33,074 nt of DNA from Archangiaceae bacterium (GCA_016879935.1 JAACJQ010000289.1:1-33074), one strand, 5' to 3'; numbered from the stretch's first letter, positions 2,940 through 20,497 are shown. Program-made: numbers and translations. The notes: generated by a model not told the origin, from the sequence alone.

Positions 2940-5900
2940 TCACGGGTTCCACTTCAGGCGAAGGCCCTCCATCGAGAGGTGGGTCGCCGCCAGCACCTCC
3001 GACAGGCTCGCGGGCAGGCCTTCGTCGACGAGGTCGATGCGATGCAGCTCCTGGCGCACGTAGAACAAACGCCGGCCATCACGACTGAAGCGCAGCTGGC
3101 CCACGCGGCCTTCGTCGGCCGTGAAGCGCACGACCTCGACCAGCTTCTCCACGTCCCACAGGCGAATGGAGCCGTCGTGACTGCCACTCGCGAGCCGCTT
3201 GCCATCGACCGAGAAGTCGAGCGCCGTCACCTGATCCTGATGGCCATAAAGGACCCCGACCGGCTGACCATCGGCGACGCTCCAGAGGCGAATCGATCGG
3301 TCCCACCCGCCGCTCGCGAGCAACGTGCCGTCAGGCGAGAACCGCACCGCGCGCACGCCGTGTTCGTGGCCCTCGAGCACGCGCAGCTCCTTCCACGTCT
3401 TCGTCTCGTAGAGGCGCACGCGGCGGTCGTACCCCGCCGTCGCGACCAGGCGGCCGTCGGGCGAGAACGTCGCGTGAAAGAGCCCGTCCTTCGAGCGGGG
3501 CAACGACACCTTCAGCGACTGCGTGGCGACGTCCCAGACGAGCAGTCTGCCGTCTCGGCCGACCGACACCGCCAGCGTCTCGTCAGGGCTCAGCGCGATG
3601 GACTCGATCTGCTCGGTGTGCGCGCCGACCACGGCGAGCGAACGCCGCTCTTTCACGTCCCAGAACCGAACCGCGCCATCGGAGGCCGAGCCAATCGCCA
3701 ACCGGCCGTCTCGCGTGAGCACCGTGCAGCGCGCGGGCATGCCGAGCACCGCGGCCTCGTCTTCCGGCGACGGCGTCATCACCGTCGCGCTCTCGAGGTC
3801 GGGCGTCACCAGCACGAAGCCCGCGTTGTGCTGCAACGCGATGCGGCCGTCGTCGAGCTCGGTCAACGCGCTGACGTCGTGGCGGTTGTCGAGCACGGGG
3901 CTGTTCATGTCGAGCGACCGCAGGCTCACCAGGCCCCGCCGGCCACCGGTCGCCAGCACGCGCGTGCCCGCGAGGAACGTCGTCGCCAGCAGCTCGTCGT
4001 CACGCCCGATGGAGGCGCTCATCAGCGGCAGCTGCGAGGGCCCCGTCCACACGCGCGAGGTGCCATCGGCGCTCGCCGAGGCGATGACGTCTCCGTCGCT
4101 CGACCACGAGACGGCGTACGTCTTCTGGGTGTTGCCGAGCAGCACCTGCCGCTCGTCCCACGTGGCGGTCGACCAGAGCCGCACGGTGGTGTCGCGGCCT
4201 GCCGAGGCGAGCAGGTGCCCCGACGGCGAGAACGCCAGGCCCAGCACCGAGCCCGTGTGCCCTTTGAGGGGAGCGACCAGCACGCCGTCGTCGCGGCGCC
4301 GCACGTCGAGGGTTCCGTCCCACGCGCCCGAGACGAGGCGCTGGCCATCGGGCGAGAAGACCACCGCGTACACGGGCCGTTCGTGGCGCGCGACCAGGCG
4401 CAGCTGGTTCGTCGCCAGGTCGAGCAGCGAGACCGAGCCGTCTTCACACCCGATGAGCAGCTCCTTCGCGTCGGGCGCGACGGCCAGCGCATTGACGGCG
4501 TCTGGCATCGGCTGCAGCACCGAGCTCTCGCCCGTCTTCGTGTCCCATGCGCGCACCGCGTCGTCTTCACCGCCAGAGAACAGCCGCGCTCCATCGGGCG
4601 TGATGGCGAGCGCGCTGACCGACTGCGTGTGCCCCTGGAGCACGCGCACCGCCGCGCCCTGCTGCACGTCCCAGACCCGAATCGTGTGGTCGGCGCTGCC
4701 CGAGAACAGCGTTCGTCCATCGGGGCTGCCCACCAGCGCGCGCACCGCCGCCGTGTGCCCTCGCAGGAGCCTGCTCGCCGACCGCGTGCGCGGCCACACC
4801 ACGCGGAGGCCTGCGCTGGCGTCTTCACGACCGGCCGACTCGCGCGCCGCTGCGTACCAGACCGACGCCTCTTCCCATCGCAGCAGCGACTCGGCGAGCC
4901 GGCCCTTCTCGACGAAGGCTTCGGCGAGCGACTCACGGTTCTGCTTCACCGCCAGCGCGAGCGCGACGACGGCGACGAGCAGCACCACCAGCGACACCGT
5001 GCCGACGAGCGCGGCGGCCCGGTTGCGGCTGACGAAGAGGCGTACGAGCTCGAGCGCCGAGTAGTCGTGCGCTCCGACGGTGCGGCCGTCGAGAAAGGCC
5101 CGCAGGTCGGCCGCGAGCGCCTTCGCGTCGGGGTAGCGCTGGTCGGGGTCCCGCTCGAGGGCCCGCGCGACGACGGCCGCCAGCGCAGCCGGCACGTGCA
5201 CGTCGCGATGCTGCAGCGGAGGAACCGGCGCTTCCTGCACCTGGCGCAGCACCTCGGCGAGCGACTTTCCCGTGAAGGGCGTGCTGCCGCAGAGCAGCTC
5301 GTAGAGCATGACGCCCAGGCTCCACACGTCGCTGCGTTTGCCGACGCGGTTGCGGTCGCCTCTGGCCTGCTCCGGGCTCATGTACAGCGGCGTACCGAAC
5401 ACCTGCCCGTCCATCGTCTCGCGCTCCCCACCGCTGCCCGAGCCGACGTCATCGTTCTCGTCGAGCACGCGCGCGAGGCCCCAGTCGAGCACCACCGTCT
5501 CACCGAGCCGCCCGAGCACGACGTTGTCTGGCTTCAGGTCGCGATGCACGACGCCGGCTTCGTGCGCGAACGAGATGGCGTTGCAGACCTCGAGCATGCG
5601 CGGGAGCAGCGCGAGCCGTTCGACGAGCGTGGTGGCCGCCGACATCGCCTGACCAAGCGTGCCGACTCTTCCGGACCTGTCGCCCTGCACCAGGCGCTGC
5701 GCGCAGAAGAGCCGGCCGTCATCGGTTCGGCCGATCTCGTGCACCGCGATGATGTTGGGGTGGTCGAGCCGCGCGGTGATGCGGGCCTCACGAAGAAAGC
5801 GCGCCTCGGAGTCTGCGCCAGCGCTGCCGTCACCCGACGGCCTCGGCACCTTGAAGGCGACCTCGCGACCGAGCTCTTTGTCGAAGGCGACCCACACGAT

Positions 5901-6023
5901 GGACTGGCCACCACGGGCGAGTTCGCGAAGCAGGCTGTAGCGCGCGGTGACGGGCTGCGCCGGGCCCGCACCGGTCGAGGGCAACGTGGTCGCAAGTGAT
6001 GGAGCGTCCCCCACGGTCGGCAT
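2940..6023 (-). CDS. Ser/Thr protein kinase fused to WD40 repeats
   Basis: The protein has 1027 residues and starts at ATG 6023. The N-terminal kinase (about 28-312) has Lys58 in VAFK, the catalytic loop HRDLKPDN (160-167), DWG in place of DFG (180-182, metal Asp kept) and SPE (216-218). The glycine loop is loose (ARGGQSIVW). A transmembrane helix lies at about 336-359, then a short helical stretch. From about 418 to the C-terminus I count 14 WD-type repeats, strong ones with GH...D...RLWD and weaker ones in the middle, enough for two seven-bladed propellers. The propellers lie beyond the membrane helix and probably act as an extracytoplasmic binding platform. Kinase-WD40 fusions are typical of myxobacteria and planctomycetes. 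The gene is divergent from the calpain-like gene, with only 24 bases between its start and the longest frame of that gene. Confidence 0.93.
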   Translation of the reverse strand: MPTVGDAPSLATTLPSTGAGPAQPVTARYSLLRELARGGQSIVWVAFDKELGREVAFKVPRPSGDGSAGADSEARFLREARITARLDHPNIIAVHEIGRTDDGRLFCAQRLVQGDRSGRVGTLGQAMSAATTLVERLALLPRMLEVCNAISFAHEAGVVHRDLKPDNVVLGRLGETVVLDWGLARVLDENDDVGSGSGGERETMDGQVFGTPLYMSPEQARGDRNRVGKRSDVWSLGVMLYELLCGSTPFTGKSLAEVLRQVQEAPVPPLQHRDVHVPAALAAVVARALERDPDQRYPDAKALAADLRAFLDGRTVGAHDYSALELVRLFVSRNRAAALVGTVSLVVLLVAVVALALAVKQNRESLAEAFVEKGRLAESLLRWEEASVWYAAARESAGREDASAGLRVVWPRTRSASRLLRGHTAAVRALVGSPDGRTLFSGSADHTIRVWDVQQGAAVRVLQGHTQSVSALAITPDGARLFSGGEDDAVRAWDTKTGESSVLQPMPDAVNALAVAPDAKELLIGCEDGSVSLLDLATNQLRLVARHERPVYAVVFSPDGQRLVSGAWDGTLDVRRRDDGVLVAPLKGHTGSVLGLAFSPSGHLLASAGRDTTVRLWSTATWDERQVLLGNTQKTYAVSWSSDGDVIASASADGTSRVWTGPSQLPLMSASIGRDDELLATTFLAGTRVLATGGRRGLVSLRSLDMNSPVLDNRHDVSALTELDDGRIALQHNAGFVLVTPDLESATVMTPSPEDEAAVLGMPARCTVLTRDGRLAIGSASDGAVRFWDVKERRSLAVVGAHTEQIESIALSPDETLAVSVGRDGRLLVWDVATQSLKVSLPRSKDGLFHATFSPDGRLVATAGYDRRVRLYETKTWKELRVLEGHEHGVRAVRFSPDGTLLASGGWDRSIRLWSVADGQPVGVLYGHQDQVTALDFSVDGKRLASGSHDGSIRLWDVEKLVEVVRFTADEGRVGQLRFSRDGRRLFYVRQELHRIDLVDEGLPASLSEVLAATHLSMEGLRLKWNP

Positions 6024-6047: not shown

Positions 6048-7808
6048 GTGGTGACGAGGATGATGCTAGGCATCGGGGTGATGCCCGCTCCCCTCTCCGA
6101 CCGCCGTCTCGCTTCGGTGTACGCGTCGTTCGAACGACAGCTCGCGAAAGAAGCCCGCACCACCATCGGCAAAGACCAGGCGCTCGAGCTGTTGGCCGAG
6201 CTGGCAGACCGCGCGGGCAAGACGTCGAAGGATCTGCTGACCGAGCTGCGCACGCCGGGCCTCTCGCTGCAGCAGCAGGCGGCGCTGGTGAAGAAGGGCC
6301 TGACGAGTGACGAGCGCAGCGACCTGAGGGCGCTGCTGAAGGACGGTACGGTGCCGCTCGCTCCGGCGGCGCGCGAGCTCTTCGAAGCGGTGCTCGGTGG
6401 AGCGCCCATCGCCCACGACGCGACGCTCGATGCGGTCGTGACTGCAGGCACTGGCGTTCGCGGCACGACGAAGCCCAACGCGACCATCGAAGCCGTGAAC
6501 GTCTCCGCCGCGGCGGGCTCGGGACACGACGTGTTCGTGCTCGGTCAGGCCGATGCGCAAGGCCGCTTCTCCGCGAAGCTCTCGGGGCCGCAGCGGCCGA
6601 AAGAAGGTGACTTCGTTCGACTGCGTGCGCGCTTCGACGACGGCTCGACGAGCGACTGGGTGACGGTGCAGGCCGATGGGCGTGACGCGCGGCCCGCGGG
6701 CCTGCTGGTGAATCGCCTCGAGCTGTCGACCTCGGCGAGCGGCAAGGTCTCGGTCAACTCGCGCGACGACGAGCGCCACCTCTCGGAGCCCGGCGCCACG
6801 CTCTCGTTCACCAACCTGCGCACGAACGCCGTCGAGACCGTCACGCTCGATGGCAACGGGCAACTGCCGAAGGGCTTCTCGCTCGCGGGCAAGGCGGGCG
6901 ATCGGTTCTCGGTCTCGGTCACCGACGGCGTGCACGACAAGGCGATGAAGCAGGTCGCGGGCTACGTCACGGTGGCTGGAGGCTCTCGCGCGGGCGATCT
7001 CGTGCCGACGCCGGCGCTGCACAAGGACGAGCTCAACAAAGACGGCACGCCGAAGATGACGAAGAAGACGTTCTCGGGCCCGCTGATTCGCGACGGCATC
7101 AGCATGGCCGACGTGCACCAGGGCTCGCTCGCCGACTGCTACTTCCCCGCGGCGGTGGCGGCGGTGGCCAACGCGAGACCCGAGCTGCTTCGTCAGCTCA
7201 TTCGCGACAACGGCGACGGCACGTTCACCTTCACGTTCACGCAGCGTGACTGGGCGACGGGCCGCACGAAGAAGGTGCCGGTGACGGTCGATGGCGATCT
7301 CTGGGTGAAGCCCGAGAAGGGCACGCCCATCTACGGCCGCGGCGGCGTCGACCAGCGGCCCGAGACGATGGAGCTGTGGTTTCCGCTCCTCGAGAAGGCG
7401 TACGCGCAGTGGAAGGGCAGCTACGACGTGATGGGCAGCGGCGGCGTGGCGAGCGACGTGTTCGAAGAGCTGACCGGCGAAGCGGCCGACTATTACGACC
7501 TCAACGCGCGCACGAACCCCGACTCACTCTGGCAGCGCATCACCAGCGCCATCGACGACAAGCGGCCCATCGCGGCGGGCACGCACGAAGAGCACGGGCC
7601 GGTGCACTACACGAACACCGGCGTCTTCGGAGACCACGCGTACTCCATCGTCGGCTACCAGACCGAAGGGTCGAAGCGCATGGTGGTGCTGCGCAACCCC
7701 TGGGGTGACACCGAGCCCAGGAACAACGGGCCCGATGACGGGGTGTTCAAGATCGACCTCGAGAAGTTCATGCACCTGTACGCGAACGTGATGACGATCG
7801 CGAAGTAG
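6048..7808 (+). CDS. Calpain-family (C2) cysteine protease
   Basis: The longest frame gives 586 residues from GTG 6048. ATG 6060/6063 or ATG 6081 are alternatives, and 6081 leaves a more usual gap to the divergent kinase. The C-terminal half is a calpain-like catalytic domain: Cys364 in QGSLADCYF (classic QGxLGDCWF), His530 in GDHAYSIVG and Asn550 in LRNPWG, so the catalytic triad is complete. Residues about 20-120 form a helical region. Residues about 125-310 look like one or two beta-sandwich, Ig-like domains, with repeated phrases such as NATIEAVNVS and GATLSFTNLR. I see no clear signal peptide. The usual Ca-binding PEF domain of animal calpains is absent. Substrates are unknown. The end is convergent with the UDPGP gene, three bases apart. 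Confidence 0.88.
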   Translation: MVTRMMLGIGVMPAPLSDRRLASVYASFERQLAKEARTTIGKDQALELLAELADRAGKTSKDLLTELRTPGLSLQQQAALVKKGLTSDERSDLRALLKDGTVPLAPAARELFEAVLGGAPIAHDATLDAVVTAGTGVRGTTKPNATIEAVNVSAAAGSGHDVFVLGQADAQGRFSAKLSGPQRPKEGDFVRLRARFDDGSTSDWVTVQADGRDARPAGLLVNRLELSTSASGKVSVNSRDDERHLSEPGATLSFTNLRTNAVETVTLDGNGQLPKGFSLAGKAGDRFSVSVTDGVHDKAMKQVAGYVTVAGGSRAGDLVPTPALHKDELNKDGTPKMTKKTFSGPLIRDGISMADVHQGSLADCYFPAAVAAVANARPELLRQLIRDNGDGTFTFTFTQRDWATGRTKKVPVTVDGDLWVKPEKGTPIYGRGGVDQRPETMELWFPLLEKAYAQWKGSYDVMGSGGVASDVFEELTGEAADYYDLNARTNPDSLWQRITSAIDDKRPIAAGTHEEHGPVHYTNTGVFGDHAYSIVGYQTEGSKRMVVLRNPWGDTEPRNNGPDDGVFKIDLEKFMHLYANVMTIAK

Positions 7809-13434: not shown

Positions 13435-14787
13435 TCACGACAACAGGAAGAAGGTCGGGTTCACCTGCTCCGCGGCCGCGTCGACGGTGCCCACGATGGA
13501 GCGCGAGGCGTCGACGCCCAGATCGAGCAGGTACGAAGCCGGGCCTTCGGTCGTGCGCACCACCCGCACCACCGGCCGAGACGCCCGCCCCGCCTCGACC
13601 GGCACGTCGATGACCACTGCCACCGCGCCGTCGTCGAGCTTCACCATCGAGCCGATGGGGTAGATGCCGACGACCGAGACGAAGAGCGTCACCATCGACG
13701 GGTCGAAGCGCGTGCCTGCTTGATCCTGAATGAGGCGCAGCGCCTGATCAGCCGTGACGGTTGGAGCCGGCGGCTGCGCCGAGGTGAAGCGCTCGAAGGC
13801 CGACGGCACGGCGATGAGGCGGGCGAGCGCTCCCGGCCGCAGCAGGTCCTGATGCCACGCCGGCAGGCCCGAGCCGAAGGCCGCCTGCGCATGCCACGCG
13901 GTGTCGACGCGCGTGCCTTCCGTCAACGCCACCAGCATCGACAACAAGCCGCCGCGCTGGGAGTCGAGCTCGGCGTCGCGCGAGGGCTGATAGTCGGGGT
14001 GCGCAATGCCGAGCTGGTGAACGAGCGCCGCGAGCACGAGGTCGACGAGCACCACCTTCGACAGCCCCAGCCTCCGGCCCATCACCAGACAGTGCGCCGC
14101 CACCGCTGCATGAAAACACCCGAGGTCACCGCGAAACCCGGGGAAGCGCGTCAGCCCGGTGAGCAGCCCGTCGCGGTCGCGCGAGGCGTCGATGAGGGCC
14201 TGCACCACCCGCCGCGCCTGCGACGAGAACGGAGGCTGACCGGCCTGCACCCGCGTCACCGCCTCACGCGCGAGAATGGTGAGACGCGCGTAGCACTTGA
14301 GCAGGTGCTGGCGGGCGTCGACCGTCGCGCCCGTCATGCCGGGCTCGTCTGACGCAGAGCCGAGCGTCGCCAGCCGCACCGCGCCGGCCGGCTCCGACTT
14401 CAGCGCCTGCGGCGTCGGCGTGCGCCAGTGCTTCTGGAACAGGCCGAGAAAGGCGCGCAGGTCGTCTTCGGTGGTGGCGGGCGAGAAGGCCATGCGTTGA
14501 ATCGCGAGCCGCGCGTACGTCTTGCGCAGCCCTTCGGCCGCATCGGCGAGCCCGACGGGAATTCGCACCAGCGCCTTGTTGACGAAGAAGGAGTCGGCGA
14601 CGAGGTCGACGCGAACCTCCGACTCCGCCTGCAGCTCGCGAATGAGCCGCGCCAGCGCCGAGATGGGTGGGTTCAGAATGGTGTTCGTCGCGTCGTGCAC
14701 CTGCGCGAGGCGCATCAGCACCGCCACCTGATTCAGCAGCGCCGCCGAGGGCGTCACCACCGGCGCTGCCGCAGGCGCGTCGCTCAC
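13435..14787 (-). CDS. Degenerate HD-GYP-type protein (probable non-catalytic)
   Basis: The start is GTG 14787, sharing GTGA with the upstream gene's stop, which gives 450 residues. Residues 20-190 form an N-terminal helical region of unknown type. Residues about 220-400 align by eye with HD-GYP domains: HAAVAAHCLVMGRRLGL, LVLAALVHQLGI, AVPSAFERFTS and the trailing FDPSMVTLFVSVVGIYPIGS, which is a hallmark of that family. The metal-binding HD has become HQ (257-258), and the HHExxDGxGYP segment is missing or reduced to GSGLPAWHQ. Cyclic-di-GMP phosphodiesterase activity is therefore unlikely; a binding or scaffolding role is inferred. It is the last gene of the coupled kinase/HEAT/HD unit. 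Its stop is three bases from the convergent lipoprotein gene. Confidence 0.85.
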   Translation of the reverse strand: MSDAPAAAPVVTPSAALLNQVAVLMRLAQVHDATNTILNPPISALARLIRELQAESEVRVDLVADSFFVNKALVRIPVGLADAAEGLRKTYARLAIQRMAFSPATTEDDLRAFLGLFQKHWRTPTPQALKSEPAGAVRLATLGSASDEPGMTGATVDARQHLLKCYARLTILAREAVTRVQAGQPPFSSQARRVVQALIDASRDRDGLLTGLTRFPGFRGDLGCFHAAVAAHCLVMGRRLGLSKVVLVDLVLAALVHQLGIAHPDYQPSRDAELDSQRGGLLSMLVALTEGTRVDTAWHAQAAFGSGLPAWHQDLLRPGALARLIAVPSAFERFTSAQPPAPTVTADQALRLIQDQAGTRFDPSMVTLFVSVVGIYPIGSMVKLDDGAVAVVIDVPVEAGRASRPVVRVVRTTEGPASYLLDLGVDASRSIVGTVDAAAEQVNPTFFLLS

Positions 14788-16682
14788 GGCACGCCCCGCT
14801 TCGAGAGCCGCTCCAACGCCGTGCGGCACGCGGCCTTGAGGGCCGGCGTCGTCAGCACCTTCACCGACGTCGCCGTCAGCGCAGCGCGGGCCTCGGGCGA
14901 GTGCGCGGCTCCCAGGGCGAGCGCTGCGGCGATGCGCCGCGTGCCGACGCTCTGGTTCAGCTCGTTCAACAGAAAGCCGAGCGCCTCGCGGGTGTCGATG
15001 ACGCCGATGGCCTCGAACAACAGCTCGAGCTCGGGCGAGTCGATGCGCGGGCGGCGTGCCAGGGTGAGCAGCGCGGGCAGCGTCGACGGGTCTTCGAGGG
15101 CGGTGACGACCTTCAGCATCGACAGCCGCACCTCGACGTCGTTGTCCTGCACTCGCGCGAGCACGAGCTGGTGCCGCAGCAACGGCGCACGCCGGGCGGT
15201 GAGCGCCTTCGCGCCGATGCGCCGGGTCTGCACGTCGAGGCTCGACAGCAGGCGCTCGAGAATGTCGCGCGCCTCGGCGTCGGGCATCGTGGGAATCCGA
15301 ATGACGAGCGTGCCGAGGCTCGACGGGTCGCCCACGGCCGCTGCTGCGCTCGCCGCCTGACTCGGGTCGACCTCGCGCGCGAACGCCAGCGCCGCCTTTC
15401 GCGCGGCTTCGTCACGCGTGGCGCTCGCGAACTTGAGCACGTTCGGCACCACCACCTTGCCCATCACCTGCAGCGCCTCGAGCGCTGCTTCGCGGCCTGC
15501 CTCGCTCTCGAGCCCCACCACCAGCGCCTCGACCACCTCGGGGCTCATGAGGGTGTTCTTCCACTGCTTGAGCACCTCGACGCGGCGCGCTCCGAAGACG
15601 GGGTCGTTGCGTGTCGCCGACACCAGGCGCTGCCAGGTCTGCATCGGCAGGCGATAGTCACCGCCCGCGAGCGCCGCCTTCACCAACGCCTTGAACGCCT
15701 GCTCGAGGGCGGGCCAGTCGGTGGGCGCGTTGAGCACCGCGGCGTTGAGCAGCACGCCTCCGAGCAGCCCCATCGACAACCCGCGCTCGGCCTCGAGCTC
15801 GTCGCGCATCGCCTGGAGCACCGGCGCTTCGAGCCCACCCACCTGCGCCTTCTGCCCTTCGTGCGCCGCCAACTGCGCCGCGGTGATGTTGCGCACGGCT
15901 TCACTTCGCAGCAGCGCGACGTCGTCGGCGCTCACCTGAATGAGGCCTTGTGAGACGAAGCCACCCCCACCGTCGGCTGCGAGACCTTCGGAGGAGATGG
16001 CCGAGACCAACGAGTCGATCTGCTCGGCCACGCTCAGGGTCCTGCCCGTACCGACGCGCGCCGCCGAGACGCCCGAGCCGTCGCCGCCCTCCTGTGCGCC
16101 GTCGAACGTGTCGAGGAGCACCAGCTTGATGCCTCGGGGCTCGAGCTCCCAGACGCGTGAAGCGACGCTGCCACCGAGCGGCGCGTTGGCTGCCTCGAGC
16201 CACTCGCCGAGCAGGGTGCGGGCCTCGGTCGGTGTCAGAGACGTCAGCAGGCTCAGCCGGCGTACGCCCTCGTTGAAGAGCGTCGTCGCGAGGGGGTCGC
16301 GCGTCTTCGCGGCGGCGCCCTGCACCGTGAACGAGAGCGCCTGCGCGTCGAGGTGAAGCGCCGACGGCCCCACGTCGAGCTGCAGGTCGCCCTGCGCGAC
16401 GAGGGCCAGCGCGCCTGCGACCGACCGCTCGAGCGCCTCGGCCGCCATCGGGTGCGTGCGCGAGTACTGGCGAAACGGCTCCAGCGCCCGCCGCAGCCCG
16501 TGCAGCCATTGGGTGACGTCGTTGACGCGCCGCTTCGCCGGGTCGCCCTGCACCGCCGACGGCGACGAAGTCACACCCGACGGCGACGACGCACGGGTGA
16601 TGCCAGACGGTGACGACCCACGCGCGATGCCGGACGGTGACGACTGGCGCGCGCTGCCGTCTTCGTCCGGGCGCCCTCTCAT
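14784..16682 (-). CDS. HEAT-repeat-like helical protein
   Basis: The start is ATG 16682, overlapping the kinase stop as ATGA; the frame is open further upstream but that part is shadow of the kinase. The protein has 632 residues. Residues 10-43 are a Ser/Pro/Gly low-complexity tail of tandem 9-residue units, followed by a mixed N-terminal domain (about 50-260) and then alanine/leucine-rich helical pairs to the end. Phrases such as ALEALQVMGKVVVPNVLKFA, AVGDPSSLGTLV, RRIGAKALTA and TRRIAAALALGAAHSPEA are typical of HEAT/armadillo repeats. I see no catalytic motif. A scaffold or partner for the kinase upstream and the HD-like protein downstream is inferred from the four-base overlaps on both sides. 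Confidence 0.8.
   Translation of the reverse strand: MRGRPDEDGSARQSSPSGIARGSSPSGITRASSPSGVTSSPSAVQGDPAKRRVNDVTQWLHGLRRALEPFRQYSRTHPMAAEALERSVAGALALVAQGDLQLDVGPSALHLDAQALSFTVQGAAAKTRDPLATTLFNEGVRRLSLLTSLTPTEARTLLGEWLEAANAPLGGSVASRVWELEPRGIKLVLLDTFDGAQEGGDGSGVSAARVGTGRTLSVAEQIDSLVSAISSEGLAADGGGGFVSQGLIQVSADDVALLRSEAVRNITAAQLAAHEGQKAQVGGLEAPVLQAMRDELEAERGLSMGLLGGVLLNAAVLNAPTDWPALEQAFKALVKAALAGGDYRLPMQTWQRLVSATRNDPVFGARRVEVLKQWKNTLMSPEVVEALVVGLESEAGREAALEALQVMGKVVVPNVLKFASATRDEAARKAALAFAREVDPSQAASAAAAVGDPSSLGTLVIRIPTMPDAEARDILERLLSSLDVQTRRIGAKALTARRAPLLRHQLVLARVQDNDVEVRLSMLKVVTALEDPSTLPALLTLARRPRIDSPELELLFEAIGVIDTREALGFLLNELNQSVGTRRIAAALALGAAHSPEARAALTATSVKVLTTPALKAACRTALERLSKRGVP
16554..16656 (-). 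repeat. 27-bp tandem repeat encoding SSPSG units
   Basis: Three full copies of a 27-base unit (16576-16602, 16603-16629, 16630-16656) and a shortened fourth copy (16554-16575) lie in the 5' end of the HEAT-like gene. They encode SSPSGIARG, SSPSGITRA and SSPSGVT, then a reduced SSPSA. The copies still agree closely in DNA, so copy number may vary between strains. Confidence 0.85.
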
Positions 16683-19600
16683 GGGCCAGCTCCGCGCGCG
16701 GTCGACCCGGCAGGGCGAGCGGCTGCGGCCATCGCCTCGCCCTCTTTCCACCCAATCTCACGCGACCGCAGCGCCACCTCGCGAAGCTCGGCGTCGGCCT
16801 CGGCCACCCGGCCGCTCGAGCGCAGCCAGTTGGCGTGGTTGTACTGCACCCGAATGGCGCCCAGCCGATCGCCGCCTTCACGCGCGTGGGCCAGCGACTG
16901 GGTATAGAGCCGCTCGGTGAGGGCCTTGTCGCCGCGCTGTGCGGCCAACACCATCTGGTTGGCCAACACCCGGCCCTGCCCGGCTGCGCTCTGGCAGTTC
17001 TGAGCGGCGACGAGCGCGTTCTCGAAGAAGGCCTGCGCTTCGACCAGCTTGCCCAGCCGCAGATGCACTCGACCGAGCTGGTTGAGACAGGGCCACAGCG
17101 ACGCCGGCTCCGATTGCCCACGCGCGCTCAGCAGCTGCATCGCCTGGGTGAGCTCGAGGGTGGCCGGGCCCAGCTGGCCTGCCGTCTCGAGGGCCGACGC
17201 GAGCTCGGTGCGCACCGTGACGATCTGCACCACGTCGTCCGCGGCGCTCAACAGCGCGAGCGCCTCGCGCAAGTCTTTGACGGCGTCGGTCGCCCGCGAG
17301 AGCTTCAGCTCGAGCAGGCCGCGTTGACGCAGGGCCTCGGCACGCGCGCGGCCACGGCGCGTCTCGGGCACGGCGCTCATCGCCTCGTCGAGGAACGCGA
17401 GCGCGCCCTTCGGGTCGTCGAGGCCCGCGGCGCCCGCAGCGGCAGCGGCGAGCTCGAGCAGATGCCCCGAGGTGACGTCAGAGAGCGGGCCCAGCCTCGC
17501 CGCCTCACGCGCGAGCAACGAATACGCCTCGCGGTACTGGCGCGCCGCCACGTCCCACGCGTGCTTCTCGACCCAGCGATCGGCCGCCTGGCGCAGGTAC
17601 TTCATCGCCTTGCGCGGTTGCTCCGAGCCGACGAAGTGGCGGCTGAGCGCGTCGAGCGGGTGCTCCGAGCCGGCAGAGCAGCCACGCTCGAGCGCTTCGC
17701 CGACCAGCTGATGCAGCCGCCGACGGTCGGCCGGCGCGAGGCGCTTGAGAATGGTGTCACGCACCACGGCCTGGCTGAACTGCAGCACGCCTTCGCCCTG
17801 CTCGCTGCGCTCGAGCAGCCCGCGCCGAACGCAGTCGTTCACCGCAGCGGCGATGTCGATGGGCGTCTCGACCGAGGCCGACACGAGGTCGACCGTGAAG
17901 CTGCGCCCGATGACGGCGCCGAGACGCAGAAGCGTCTTCGCGTGCGGGCCGATGCGCTCGAGCCGGGCCGCGACGACGTGCGCGAGTGACTCCGGCAGCT
18001 CGGCCTCGCCGGTCGCGAATCGCCACTCACCGTTGACGAACTGCAGCTGCCCCGACTCGCTCACCGCCGAGAGCAGCTCGTTGCAGTAGTGGGGGTTGCC
18101 CTCACAGCGCGCCCAGATGGCCTCGAGGAGGGGCGCGGGCGGCCGGCCCTTTCTCAGCTGTGCGGCGACGAGCGTGGCGATGTCGGGGGGCGTCAGCGGC
18201 GCGAGCTCGACGCGCTTGAGTCGCGGGAGCACGCCTTCGGTCTCTCCCGGCCTCGCGGCGGCCAACAACCCGAGCGGGTGCGCGGGGCTCGAGCGCGCCA
18301 CCACCTCTTCGACGATCTCCAGCGAGAGCCGATCGGCCAGCTGCGCGTCGTCGATGAGCAACAACAGCGGCTGCTGCTGGGTCGCCTTCGCGAACAGCTC
18401 GAGCAGCGCGGCGCGGTCGTGGTACCGCTCCTCTTCGGCGGCGGGCGCGACGCCGGGGTTGGTCGACATCGAGAACAGGCTCTCGAGCCGCTGAATGTCG
18501 ACCGCCTCGAGGCCGAGCCGCGCGAGCCCCTTCAAGGTCGTGCGGGCGACGTCTTCGGTCGGCCCCCTGTCTCGTTCGTTGAGGGAGTGCACCAGCTGCC
18601 GAATCACGTCGAGCGGTGCCGCCTGCCCGAGCCGGCCACCACGGGCGCGCGCGATGGTGACGCCCCGCTTCGAGGCGAGCTCGTGTGCAAACCGAATCAG
18701 CCGGCTCTTGCCGATGCCGGGCTGCCCCAGCAGCAACGCGCCACCGCTGCGCCGCTGAACGAGCCCCTCGACGAAGTTCTTCAGCATCGCCTGCTCGCGC
18801 TCGCGCCCACACAGCGGCTCGGCCTTCACGACGTCGTCGGCCACCAGCTTGAAGACGGCCTCGCTCACGCCAGGGAGCGACGGCACGTCGGTGACGGTGA
18901 TGCCGCCCTTGAGCGCCGAGCGAACGGTGCGGGTGAGCAGAATCTCTCCGGCCGCCGCCGCGCCCTGCACCTGCCGCGCGAGGTTCAGCACCTCGTTGAC
19001 GGCCGGGCTGTCGTGCAGCGGCAGCGACGGGTCGACGCCGGTGACGGTCGAAGCGCAGACGCCGATGCGCACGAACGCGTTCACCCCGGTGCCCTGCCCG
19101 GAGTCGGCCACGAACGCGCGGGCGTCTCGCGCGGCGCGGAGGCACCGCATCGCGTCGTCTTCATGCAGCTCGTGAACTCCGAACACGGCCACCAGGCAGC
19201 TGCCCATGAAGCGCTCGGCCAGCCCGCCCTGCGCCGTCACCGCGTTGACGAGGCCCGCGAAGAGCGGAGCCAGGCTGTTGCCCGCGGCCGGAGAGTCGGC
19301 AGTTCGGTCGGAGCCCACCTCGAGGAAGAAGGCGTGCAGCGTGCGCTTCTCGGAGCGCGCCAGCTGCGACGACAAGGAGCGCGTGTATTGCGCGAGCTCC
19401 GATGGCAGCAACCTGCTCAACGCGTCGATGGTGACGGGCGCGACGCTCGGGTTCGAGACGGCGGTCGCGCCGGCGCTCTGGGCAGGCACGGGCTCGAGCA
19501 TCGACGCGGGCGCCGTGACGGGCGCCCCCCGCAGCCCCTGCGCGATGAGCTCGAGCGCCCGACGAAACTCGAGGGCCGAGCCGTAGCGGGCGCTGGGCTG

Positions 19601-20497
19601 CCGCTCGAGCGCCTTCAGGCAGACCTCGTCGAGCCCGGGCGGAATCGGAATGGAGGAGACGGACGACGGCGAAGCGACGACCTGGGAGAGCTGCCGGTTG
19701 ATGGTCTCGAGCTCGTTCTTCCCCGCGAAGAGCCGCTTGCCGGTCAACAGCTCCCACAAGATGACGCCGGCCGAATAGAGGTCGGTCGCGGGCGAGACGG
19801 GCTCGTTCGTGAGCTGCTCGGGCGCCATGTAGCCGGGCGTACCCACCACGAGGCCGGTGCGGGTCAGCCCGCGCTCCGAGCCGTCTCCCGCCGTCAGCTT
19901 CGCGATGCCGAAGTCGACGACCTTGAGCATCTCACTGCCATCGCGAAGCTTGCTGACGAGCACGTTGGCCGGCTTCAGGTCTCGGTGCACCACCCCCTGG
20001 GCATGCGCTTCGTCGAGCCCCGAGAGCATCTGCACCGTCAGGTTCACCGCGCGCTCGAGGGGCAGCGGCGCGTCCTCCTTCAGCACGGCGCGCAGGGTGC
20101 GACCCTCGACGTACTCCATGACGATGTAGAGCGTGCCGTCGTCGGTCTTGCCGAAGTCGAGCACCGTCACCACGTTGGGGTGGCGCATGGCCGCGGTGGC
20201 CTGGCCCTCGCGCTCGAAGCGCTGCACCAGGCTCGGGTCTTTCGCGAAGTGCGGCAGCAACGTCTTGATGCAGACCGCGCGCTTCAGCCGCTCCTGCTCG
20301 GCGCGGTACACCTTGCCCATGCCGCCTTCACCGATGAGCGCGAGCACCCGGTAGTTGCCGACGAGCTTGCCGATGAAGTCGTCACGCGAGGCCGACGTGT
20401 CTTGCACCTGGGTTCCACACTGCGCGCAGAACCGGCTCCCCGTGGCGATCGCGGCGCGACAACTCGCGCAGACGACAGTGGCAGTCGTGACCGACAT
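16679..20497 (-). CDS. Zn-ribbon / Ser-Thr kinase / cyclase-like / AAA ATPase / TPR protein
   Basis: The protein has 1272 residues from ATG 20497, chosen because the zinc ribbon (Cys10, 13, 24, 27; CASC...CAQC) begins just after it; the frame is open to 20599. The kinase domain (about 48-320) has glycine loop IGEGGMGKVY, Lys78, HRDLKPAN (171-178), DFG (195-197) and APE (225-227). Residues about 380-550 resemble a class III nucleotide cyclase (GGLAERFMGSCLVAVFG, RIGVCAST, NLARQVQ) with both metal Asp positions changed. An AAA/STAND-type ATPase follows, with Walker A GQPGIGKS (591-598) and Walker B LLLLIDD (711-717). The C-terminal third (about 990-1260) is TPR-like. The kinase plus ATPase layout recalls PknK, but no DNA-binding domain is seen. 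It is the first gene of a three-gene overlapping unit. Confidence 0.92.
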   Translation of the reverse strand: MSVTTATVVCASCRAAIATGSRFCAQCGTQVQDTSASRDDFIGKLVGNYRVLALIGEGGMGKVYRAEQERLKRAVCIKTLLPHFAKDPSLVQRFEREGQATAAMRHPNVVTVLDFGKTDDGTLYIVMEYVEGRTLRAVLKEDAPLPLERAVNLTVQMLSGLDEAHAQGVVHRDLKPANVLVSKLRDGSEMLKVVDFGIAKLTAGDGSERGLTRTGLVVGTPGYMAPEQLTNEPVSPATDLYSAGVILWELLTGKRLFAGKNELETINRQLSQVVASPSSVSSIPIPPGLDEVCLKALERQPSARYGSALEFRRALELIAQGLRGAPVTAPASMLEPVPAQSAGATAVSNPSVAPVTIDALSRLLPSELAQYTRSLSSQLARSEKRTLHAFFLEVGSDRTADSPAAGNSLAPLFAGLVNAVTAQGGLAERFMGSCLVAVFGVHELHEDDAMRCLRAARDARAFVADSGQGTGVNAFVRIGVCASTVTGVDPSLPLHDSPAVNEVLNLARQVQGAAAAGEILLTRTVRSALKGGITVTDVPSLPGVSEAVFKLVADDVVKAEPLCGREREQAMLKNFVEGLVQRRSGGALLLGQPGIGKSRLIRFAHELASKRGVTIARARGGRLGQAAPLDVIRQLVHSLNERDRGPTEDVARTTLKGLARLGLEAVDIQRLESLFSMSTNPGVAPAAEEERYHDRAALLELFAKATQQQPLLLLIDDAQLADRLSLEIVEEVVARSSPAHPLGLLAAARPGETEGVLPRLKRVELAPLTPPDIATLVAAQLRKGRPPAPLLEAIWARCEGNPHYCNELLSAVSESGQLQFVNGEWRFATGEAELPESLAHVVAARLERIGPHAKTLLRLGAVIGRSFTVDLVSASVETPIDIAAAVNDCVRRGLLERSEQGEGVLQFSQAVVRDTILKRLAPADRRRLHQLVGEALERGCSAGSEHPLDALSRHFVGSEQPRKAMKYLRQAADRWVEKHAWDVAARQYREAYSLLAREAARLGPLSDVTSGHLLELAAAAAGAAGLDDPKGALAFLDEAMSAVPETRRGRARAEALRQRGLLELKLSRATDAVKDLREALALLSAADDVVQIVTVRTELASALETAGQLGPATLELTQAMQLLSARGQSEPASLWPCLNQLGRVHLRLGKLVEAQAFFENALVAAQNCQSAAGQGRVLANQMVLAAQRGDKALTERLYTQSLAHAREGGDRLGAIRVQYNHANWLRSSGRVAEADAELREVALRSREIGWKEGEAMAAAARPAGSTARGAGP

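Follow-up and report, generated by a model that had tools for sequence, protein, structure and literature searches.

A Ser/Thr kinase gene coupled to a HEAT/pseudo-HD-GYP gene pair in Myxococcota: a candidate pseudo-enzyme regulator

Three overlapping genes and their domains

The stretch of DNA analysed here (the window; 33,074 nucleotides from an Archangiaceae bacterium, JAACJQ010000289.1) carries three coupled genes on its minus strand, which we call K, H and D (Table 1). K starts with an ATG at 20497 and stops at 16681-16679. The ATG of H at 16682 overlaps the end of K by four bases (ATGA, 16682-16679), and the GTG of D at 14787 overlaps the end of H in the same manner (GTGA, 14787-14784), the stop of D lying at 13435. 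Coordinates, strand and joints are as given in a preliminary description of this DNA, and the domain make-up that it proposed for the three proteins is borne out by Pfam/NCBIfam and profile matches. The window also contains two more Ser/Thr kinases on the minus strand (1066-2793 and 2940-6023), the second of ~1027 aa and fused to WD40 repeats, and on the plus strand a calpain-family cysteine protease (Peptidase_C2; 6048-7808) with a weak match to an Ig-like domain.

Table 1. Genes and domains of the K-H-D trio in the window
Feature	Position	Strand	Details
K	16679..20497	-	Zn-ribbon / Ser-Thr kinase / pseudo-cyclase / AAA_16 (STAND-like) / TPR protein, 1272 aa
K zinc ribbon, N-terminal, CxxC...CxxC	20408..20470	-	residues 10-30; Zn_Ribbon_1 E 0.0013, below Pfam cut-off; four cysteines in sequence
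K Hanks-type kinase domain, catalytic motifs intact	19583..20353	-	residues 49-305; Pkinase 3e-51
K class III cyclase-like domain, both metal Asp lost	18863..19345	-	~residues 385-545; aligned with intact L041 cyclase
K AAA_16 P-loop ATPase	18272..18817	-	residues 561-742; AAA_16 2e-17; Walker A GQPGIGKS, Walker B LLLLIDD
K TPR region	16718..17590	-	~residues 970-1260; TPR_12 match
H	14784..16682	-	HEAT-repeat protein, 632 aa
H N-terminal domain common to D	16113..16550	-	residues 45-190
H HEAT repeats	14796..15833	-	~residues 284-629
D	13435..14787	-	degenerate HD-GYP protein, 450 aa
D N-terminal domain common to H	14383..14751	-	residues 13-135
D pseudo-HD-GYP domain	13666..14316	-	residues 158-374; 1/7 metal ligands left; GYP and substrate Arg lost
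D C-terminal beta domain	13438..13665	-	residues 375-450; predicted strands, conservation

The VAIK Lys, alphaC Glu, HRD and DFG of a Hanks-type kinase are intact in the window K and in every K protein of the trio set that has a kinase domain, and so are the Walker A and B residues; the Lys of HRDLKPAN is replaced by Ser in the Myxococcus-type K. In the cyclase-like domain of K, metal Asp and base-selecting residues are gone (FLEVG/GSCL versus FADIS/GDCL of the class III cyclase at locus L041). The first metal Asp is lost in the aligned kinase-bearing relatives, and the second is kept in one of them (L055). Motif alignments thus confirm the earlier statement that kinase and ATPase motifs are intact and that the cyclase and HD-GYP domains have lost catalytic residues. 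Downstream of AAA_16 in the protein lies a GxP motif (G800/P802), both residues of which are invariant in 21 K proteins. With Walker A, an hhhhDD Walker B and this GxP, K has the sequence features of STAND NTPases, and we assign it provisionally to that type from its motifs and domain order, that is, from sequence. Among the ~150 kinases in the window's own genome, only K matches the K query past ~residue 450. Membership of K in the TOMM kinase/cyclase fusions (TIGR03903) was rejected, as its continuous match over residues 73-996 scored 364.1 bits, below the curated cut-off of 705.75; nothing resembling a TOMM biosynthesis cluster was seen among the window genes scanned with Pfam. An identity as anti-phage defence kinase was rejected too, since the best 25 of 35 PADLOC matches cover only ~residues 20-362 of K. 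PADLOC gave no defence matches for H and D.

The repeats of H match HEAT_2 weakly when taken singly, but as a profile H strongly matches HEAT/alphaRep structures. D matches HD_5 at 2e-9 and its profile matches HD-GYP structures. In the predicted models (pLDDT 82.7 for D, and 77.7 for H, which has a disordered stretch), Foldseek and VIA-align comparisons with Bd1817, PmGH and DvhD, together with the profile matches, identify an HD-GYP fold in D. The nearest fold is that of the inactive Bd1817 (Z 21.1, rmsd 2.9, 208 residues), and PmGH scores Z 13.5. The N-terminal domain that H and D have in common was recovered by hhalign (97%, E 5.6e-11); H proteins from other phyla match the D profile at this domain, and its secondary structure is alike in the H and D models (helix-helix-strands-helix-strand-helix). 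Fold searches, the results of which were filled by HD and HEAT matches, returned no name for the domain.

Conservation of the trio and of the H-D pair

Searching 195 genomes of the phylum, in which D orthologues score far above a weaker paralogue, we found K, H and D together in the fetched regions at 21 loci in 20 genomes. The carriers belong to Myxococcus, Hyalangium and Citreicoccus or are MAGs (named carriers are Hyalangium versicolor, Myxococcus llanfairpwll..., M. qinghaiensis and Citreicoccus inhibens), and their D proteins are ~33-45% identical. The preliminary description had proposed a neighbourhood check for co-conservation beyond close relatives, and these loci provide it. Two layouts occur. 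The genes run K, H, D in one direction in the window, Myxococcus, Hyalangium and Citreicoccus, and K is convergent to D-H (K> <D<H) at five loci (L054, L055, L056, L057 and L062), with two small genes between K and D in L055. K is cut by the contig end in L053 and L062; gene starts in the fetched loci were called by a simple method based on codon usage, and some of the contigs are short. When the non-kinase part of K served as query, most of the phylum's best matches fell at H-D loci. Moreover, the divergences of K, H and D are correlated (Mantel rho 0.87-0.94, 0/2000 permutations), to which a common species history could partly give rise. One genome (G106) has a second K near a second H-D; in another (G156) the additional K is not near any H-D gene, and H-D stands without a visible adjacent K in G112 and G147:C689.

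Five Corallococcus-like genomes (L248-L252), which represent one sister genus, have K in synteny and lack H-D. In all five the Walker A of K reads GRS, not GKS, with the kinase motifs intact; the K proteins of the trios all have GK[ST]. This change, possibly a single event, fits a dependence of the K ATPase on H-D.

H and D form an ancient pair that is older than the trio. When named genomes were scanned, full-length D relatives with H directly upstream turned up in records from Desulfobacteraceae, Syntrophaceae, Nitrospirae, Aminicenantes, Acidobacteria and NC10. In the pooled table, H lies directly upstream of 92 of the 97 D proteins that have the N-domain and a visible upstream gene, versus 2 of 60 HD-GYP proteins without the N-domain. 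Likewise, in 80 genomes of a Nitrospirae-related phylum, that of the intact pair L082 from Nitrospirae bacterium JdFR-88, H was found at most 450 bases upstream of every N-domain D among the matches listed (53/53). Most Myxococcota, and the other phyla too, have H-D without a K. The pair itself emerged from this analysis and is absent from the preliminary description, which had treated the three genes as one unit: a coupled signalling trio does recur, but within it H-D is an older pair that often goes without K, and K goes without H-D in the Corallococcus-like genomes. An Acidobacteria MAG has a tandem of two H-D pairs, both with intact ligands (L096:2925-10102). Beside an AAA/TPR gene, HEAT repeats and D share one open frame at L262:3156-5573, where a nearby gap makes a true fusion unsure; an apparent H-D fusion in L179 was discarded as the artefact of a run of N.

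Loss of the HD-GYP active site and kinase neighbours

Catalytic HD-GYP domains have seven metal ligands (H...HD...H...HH...D) and the GYP motif. The sole ligand kept in the window D is the H of HD, which here reads HQ; the window D and its nearest relative have F at H1 and HQ for HD, and most other trio D proteins keep H1 and the HD dyad. The third His (H3), the fifth His and GYP were missing in all 40 Myxococcota D proteins that were aligned first. In a larger automatic alignment the HHE region is out of place for some rows, and since single-residue scores there are approximate, we used only the classes 7/7 and less. The H-D pairs sampled outside Myxococcota have 7/7 ligands, in a sample drawn via two conserved peptide patterns that could miss dead pairs in other phyla. 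A few Myxococcota pairs also have 7/7 (L155, L158, L166 and L171), and most pairs of Myxococcota are dead.

In a quick maximum-likelihood tree the dead D proteins form one clade (57 rows, SH-aLRT 94, a good value below the starred level; some rows have long branches), for which one change suffices, and the clade was also recovered with the motif columns masked. The trio D proteins belong to a supported subclade of it, which has L041 and L040 as basal members. At both of these loci an AAA/TPR protein without kinase is convergent with H-D. The one at L041 (1925-5119, plus strand) is K-like and combines an intact class III cyclase, AAA_16, TPR and a GGDEF-like domain lacking the GGDEF motif, beside a dead H-D. 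This suggests an order of events in which the AAA/TPR partner came first and the kinase later, with decay of the cyclase and of the HD-GYP domain. Given that the pair is intact in other phyla and that its active site is gone from most myxobacteria, the data also suggest that a messenger-degrading enzyme was turned into a kinase regulator. A further suggestion is that many of the Myxococcota proteins counted automatically as HD-GYP 'phosphodiesterases' are inactive.

A kinase is encoded within three genes of 24 of 74 dead pairs versus 0 of 26 intact ones (p 0.0003), and of 13 of 57 dead pairs after thinning of close relatives (p 0.007), in samples that are not fully independent and with an intact group mostly from phyla with fewer kinases. 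Pkinase matches are found in 11 of 100 immediate neighbours of dead pairs versus 3 of 101 genes four to five places off (p 0.02), and cNMP_binding matches in 7 of the 100. The association of dead pairs with kinases is therefore suggestive only, and for the majority of H-D pairs in Myxococcota no kinase is encoded within that distance of three genes. One kinase adjoining a dead H-D has two cNMP-binding domains (L039:4564-6795) and another carries MshEN, REC and DUF4388 (L037:10803-13694). Upstream of a paralogous H-D, a protein of ~137 aa is cNMP-binding by Pfam (L044:6466-6876) and is preceded by an MFS/HEAT-type protein; genes of similar size (~137 aa) lie upstream of the paralogous H-D at L043, L050, L153, L187, L190 and L178.

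PmGH recognises its substrate through R314 (PMC4159591). In our assignment, the arginine of an RPYR motif probably corresponds to this residue. It is kept in 21 of 22 intact pairs and 26 of 27 paralogous dead Myxococcota pairs, but in only 3 of 19 D proteins of the trio clade; the window D reads AQPPAP at this position. In terms of canonical substrate-contact residues, to which this comparison is limited, the trio D lacks the contacts of a c-di-GMP receptor (RPYR arginine, GYP). From these counts the paralogous dead pair would be a fair candidate for such a receptor, and the trio D a poor one.

A model of kinase control, its rivals and known relatives

In the explanation that we favour, K is a kinase of the STAND type, with an ATPase/TPR switch under the control of a pseudo-enzyme complex formed by H and D. 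K would give a Ser/Thr kinase output through its N-terminal kinase, which is followed by the dead cyclase, with the central AAA_16 as switch and the C-terminal TPR region as sensor. H, as HEAT scaffold, and D, once an HD-GYP phosphodiesterase and now retained as a pseudo-enzyme that binds protein, would form a complex, probably via their homologous N-terminal domains. This complex would dock on K as a dedicated regulator and decide whether the ATPase/TPR part assembles, and hence whether the kinase fires. The contacts between H and D and between H-D and K, the direction of control, and the lack of any reading of cyclic dinucleotides, are what we infer from the trio at 21 loci in two gene orders, the correlated distances, the common N-domain, the dead pairs near kinases, the Walker A change in Corallococcus-like genomes, the loss of the substrate Arg, and the AAA/TPR protein that stands at H-D already without a kinase in L040 and L041. 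We put the probability of this model at just under one half. Several points speak against it. K persists with intact kinase motifs in the Corallococcus-like genomes that lack H-D, so that dependence is not strict; the altered Walker A and the decay of the cyclase amount to one or few evolutionary events; a second K lies apart from H-D in G156, and no K is visible next to H-D in G112 and G147:C689; and kinases are missing within three genes of most Myxococcota H-D pairs. For the wider history, we regard the chances as even that H-D with its common N-domain is an unrecognised module of several phyla, active as phosphodiesterase outside Myxococcota, which lost its site once in a Myxococcota lineage and was reshaped there into a pseudo-enzyme that regulates Ser/Thr kinases, the partner cyclase decaying in parallel.

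The preliminary description had proposed that the dead domains read cyclic nucleotides by binding. That the pseudo-HD-GYP domain, the pseudo-cyclase or both still bind a cyclic (di)nucleotide but do not turn it over, and relay the binding to the kinase, now seems rather unlikely. An HD-GYP domain can act as a c-di-GMP receptor, as in DvhD of Desulfovibrio (PMC13090378), a relative of D by sequence and fold; cNMP_binding proteins (7/100) are among the neighbours of dead H-D pairs, which include the two-cNMP kinase of L039, the MshEN kinase of L037 and the cyclase/AAA/TPR/GGDEF-like protein of L041; and the RPYR motif is kept in clade B D proteins. However, the trio clade lacks GYP, has mostly lost the metal ligands and keeps the substrate Arg in just 3 of 19, which weakens the proposal for D, and it is weakened for the pseudo-cyclase by the loss of metal and base-selecting residues. 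It is very improbable that D, with a changed set of ligands, retains metal-dependent hydrolase activity of another kind. The H1 and HD dyad of most other trio D proteins and the binuclear iron centre of Bd1817, the nearest fold (PMC4159591), would agree with such an activity, but the window D and its nearest relative have F at H1, HQ for HD and 1/7 ligands, and H3 is lost in the 40 Myxococcota D proteins sampled.

Two further readings leave the sensing of nucleotides aside. K could phosphorylate H and/or D, which would then be substrates acting on a further target, an output and not a regulator. The kinases near dead pairs are indeed of several unrelated architectures (K, kinase-cNMP, REC-kinase and kinase-MshEN-REC), and H-D often has no neighbouring kinase, as expected of an independent effector; yet the Walker A change where H-D is absent points to a link with the ATPase part of K, and the basal L040 and L041 have an AAA/TPR protein and no kinase at H-D, so that we consider this reading unlikely. 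If K merely adjoined an independent H-D, co-occurrence would reflect one inherited chromosomal block. The occurrence of H-D without K in most Myxococcota and of K without H-D in Corallococcus-like genomes would suit this, and within Myxococcus one deletion could explain the loss of all three genes. Adjacency has nevertheless survived a switch between co-directional and convergent gene order and a divergence of D to ~33-45% identity, and the second K of G106 lies near a second H-D, which makes mere adjacency improbable.

Myxobacteria each encode more than 100 Ser/Thr kinases, for which few regulators are known. In the favoured model of control by H-D, the conserved pair that accompanies the kinase K offers a testable regulator candidate. 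How second-messenger enzymes become protein-binding regulators is an open question, for which the H-D series of intact enzyme, dead protein with substrate residues and dead protein without them is a natural before-and-after comparison.

The libraries and open-licence papers searched gave no name for the system, as the preliminary description had supposed, and the open-licence literature yielded no work on the HEAT/HD-GYP pair and nothing on the K-type kinase architecture with a partner pair. The components are of known kinds; what appears to be undescribed in the open papers searched is their combination, the H-D pair and the change of that pair into a pseudo-enzyme. K has a PknB-like catalytic domain in common with other Hanks-type kinases of Myxococcota. 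The order of effector, P-loop switch and TPR in K is like that of STAND NTPases (AAA_16/TPR, MalT-like), from which K differs in its effector, a kinase with a pseudo-cyclase, and in its HEAT/pseudo-HD-GYP partner. With the TOMM fusions of TIGR03903 K has the order kinase, cyclase-like domain and AAA in common, but it falls below their cut-off, its cyclase is dead and it has the H-D partner. D resembles the HD-GYP phosphodiesterases (PmGH, PA4781 and V-cGAP3) and the inactive Bd1817 in fold and HD_5 similarity; unlike the phosphodiesterases, the window D lacks six of the seven metal ligands, GYP and the substrate Arg, and has an unnamed N-terminal domain in common with its HEAT partner. In DvhD, too, an HD-GYP domain serves signalling rather than known turnover, but DvhD is a membrane PAS/Cache protein that binds c-di-GMP, whereas the trio D lacks those domains, is paired with a HEAT protein and is without the nucleotide-contact arginine.
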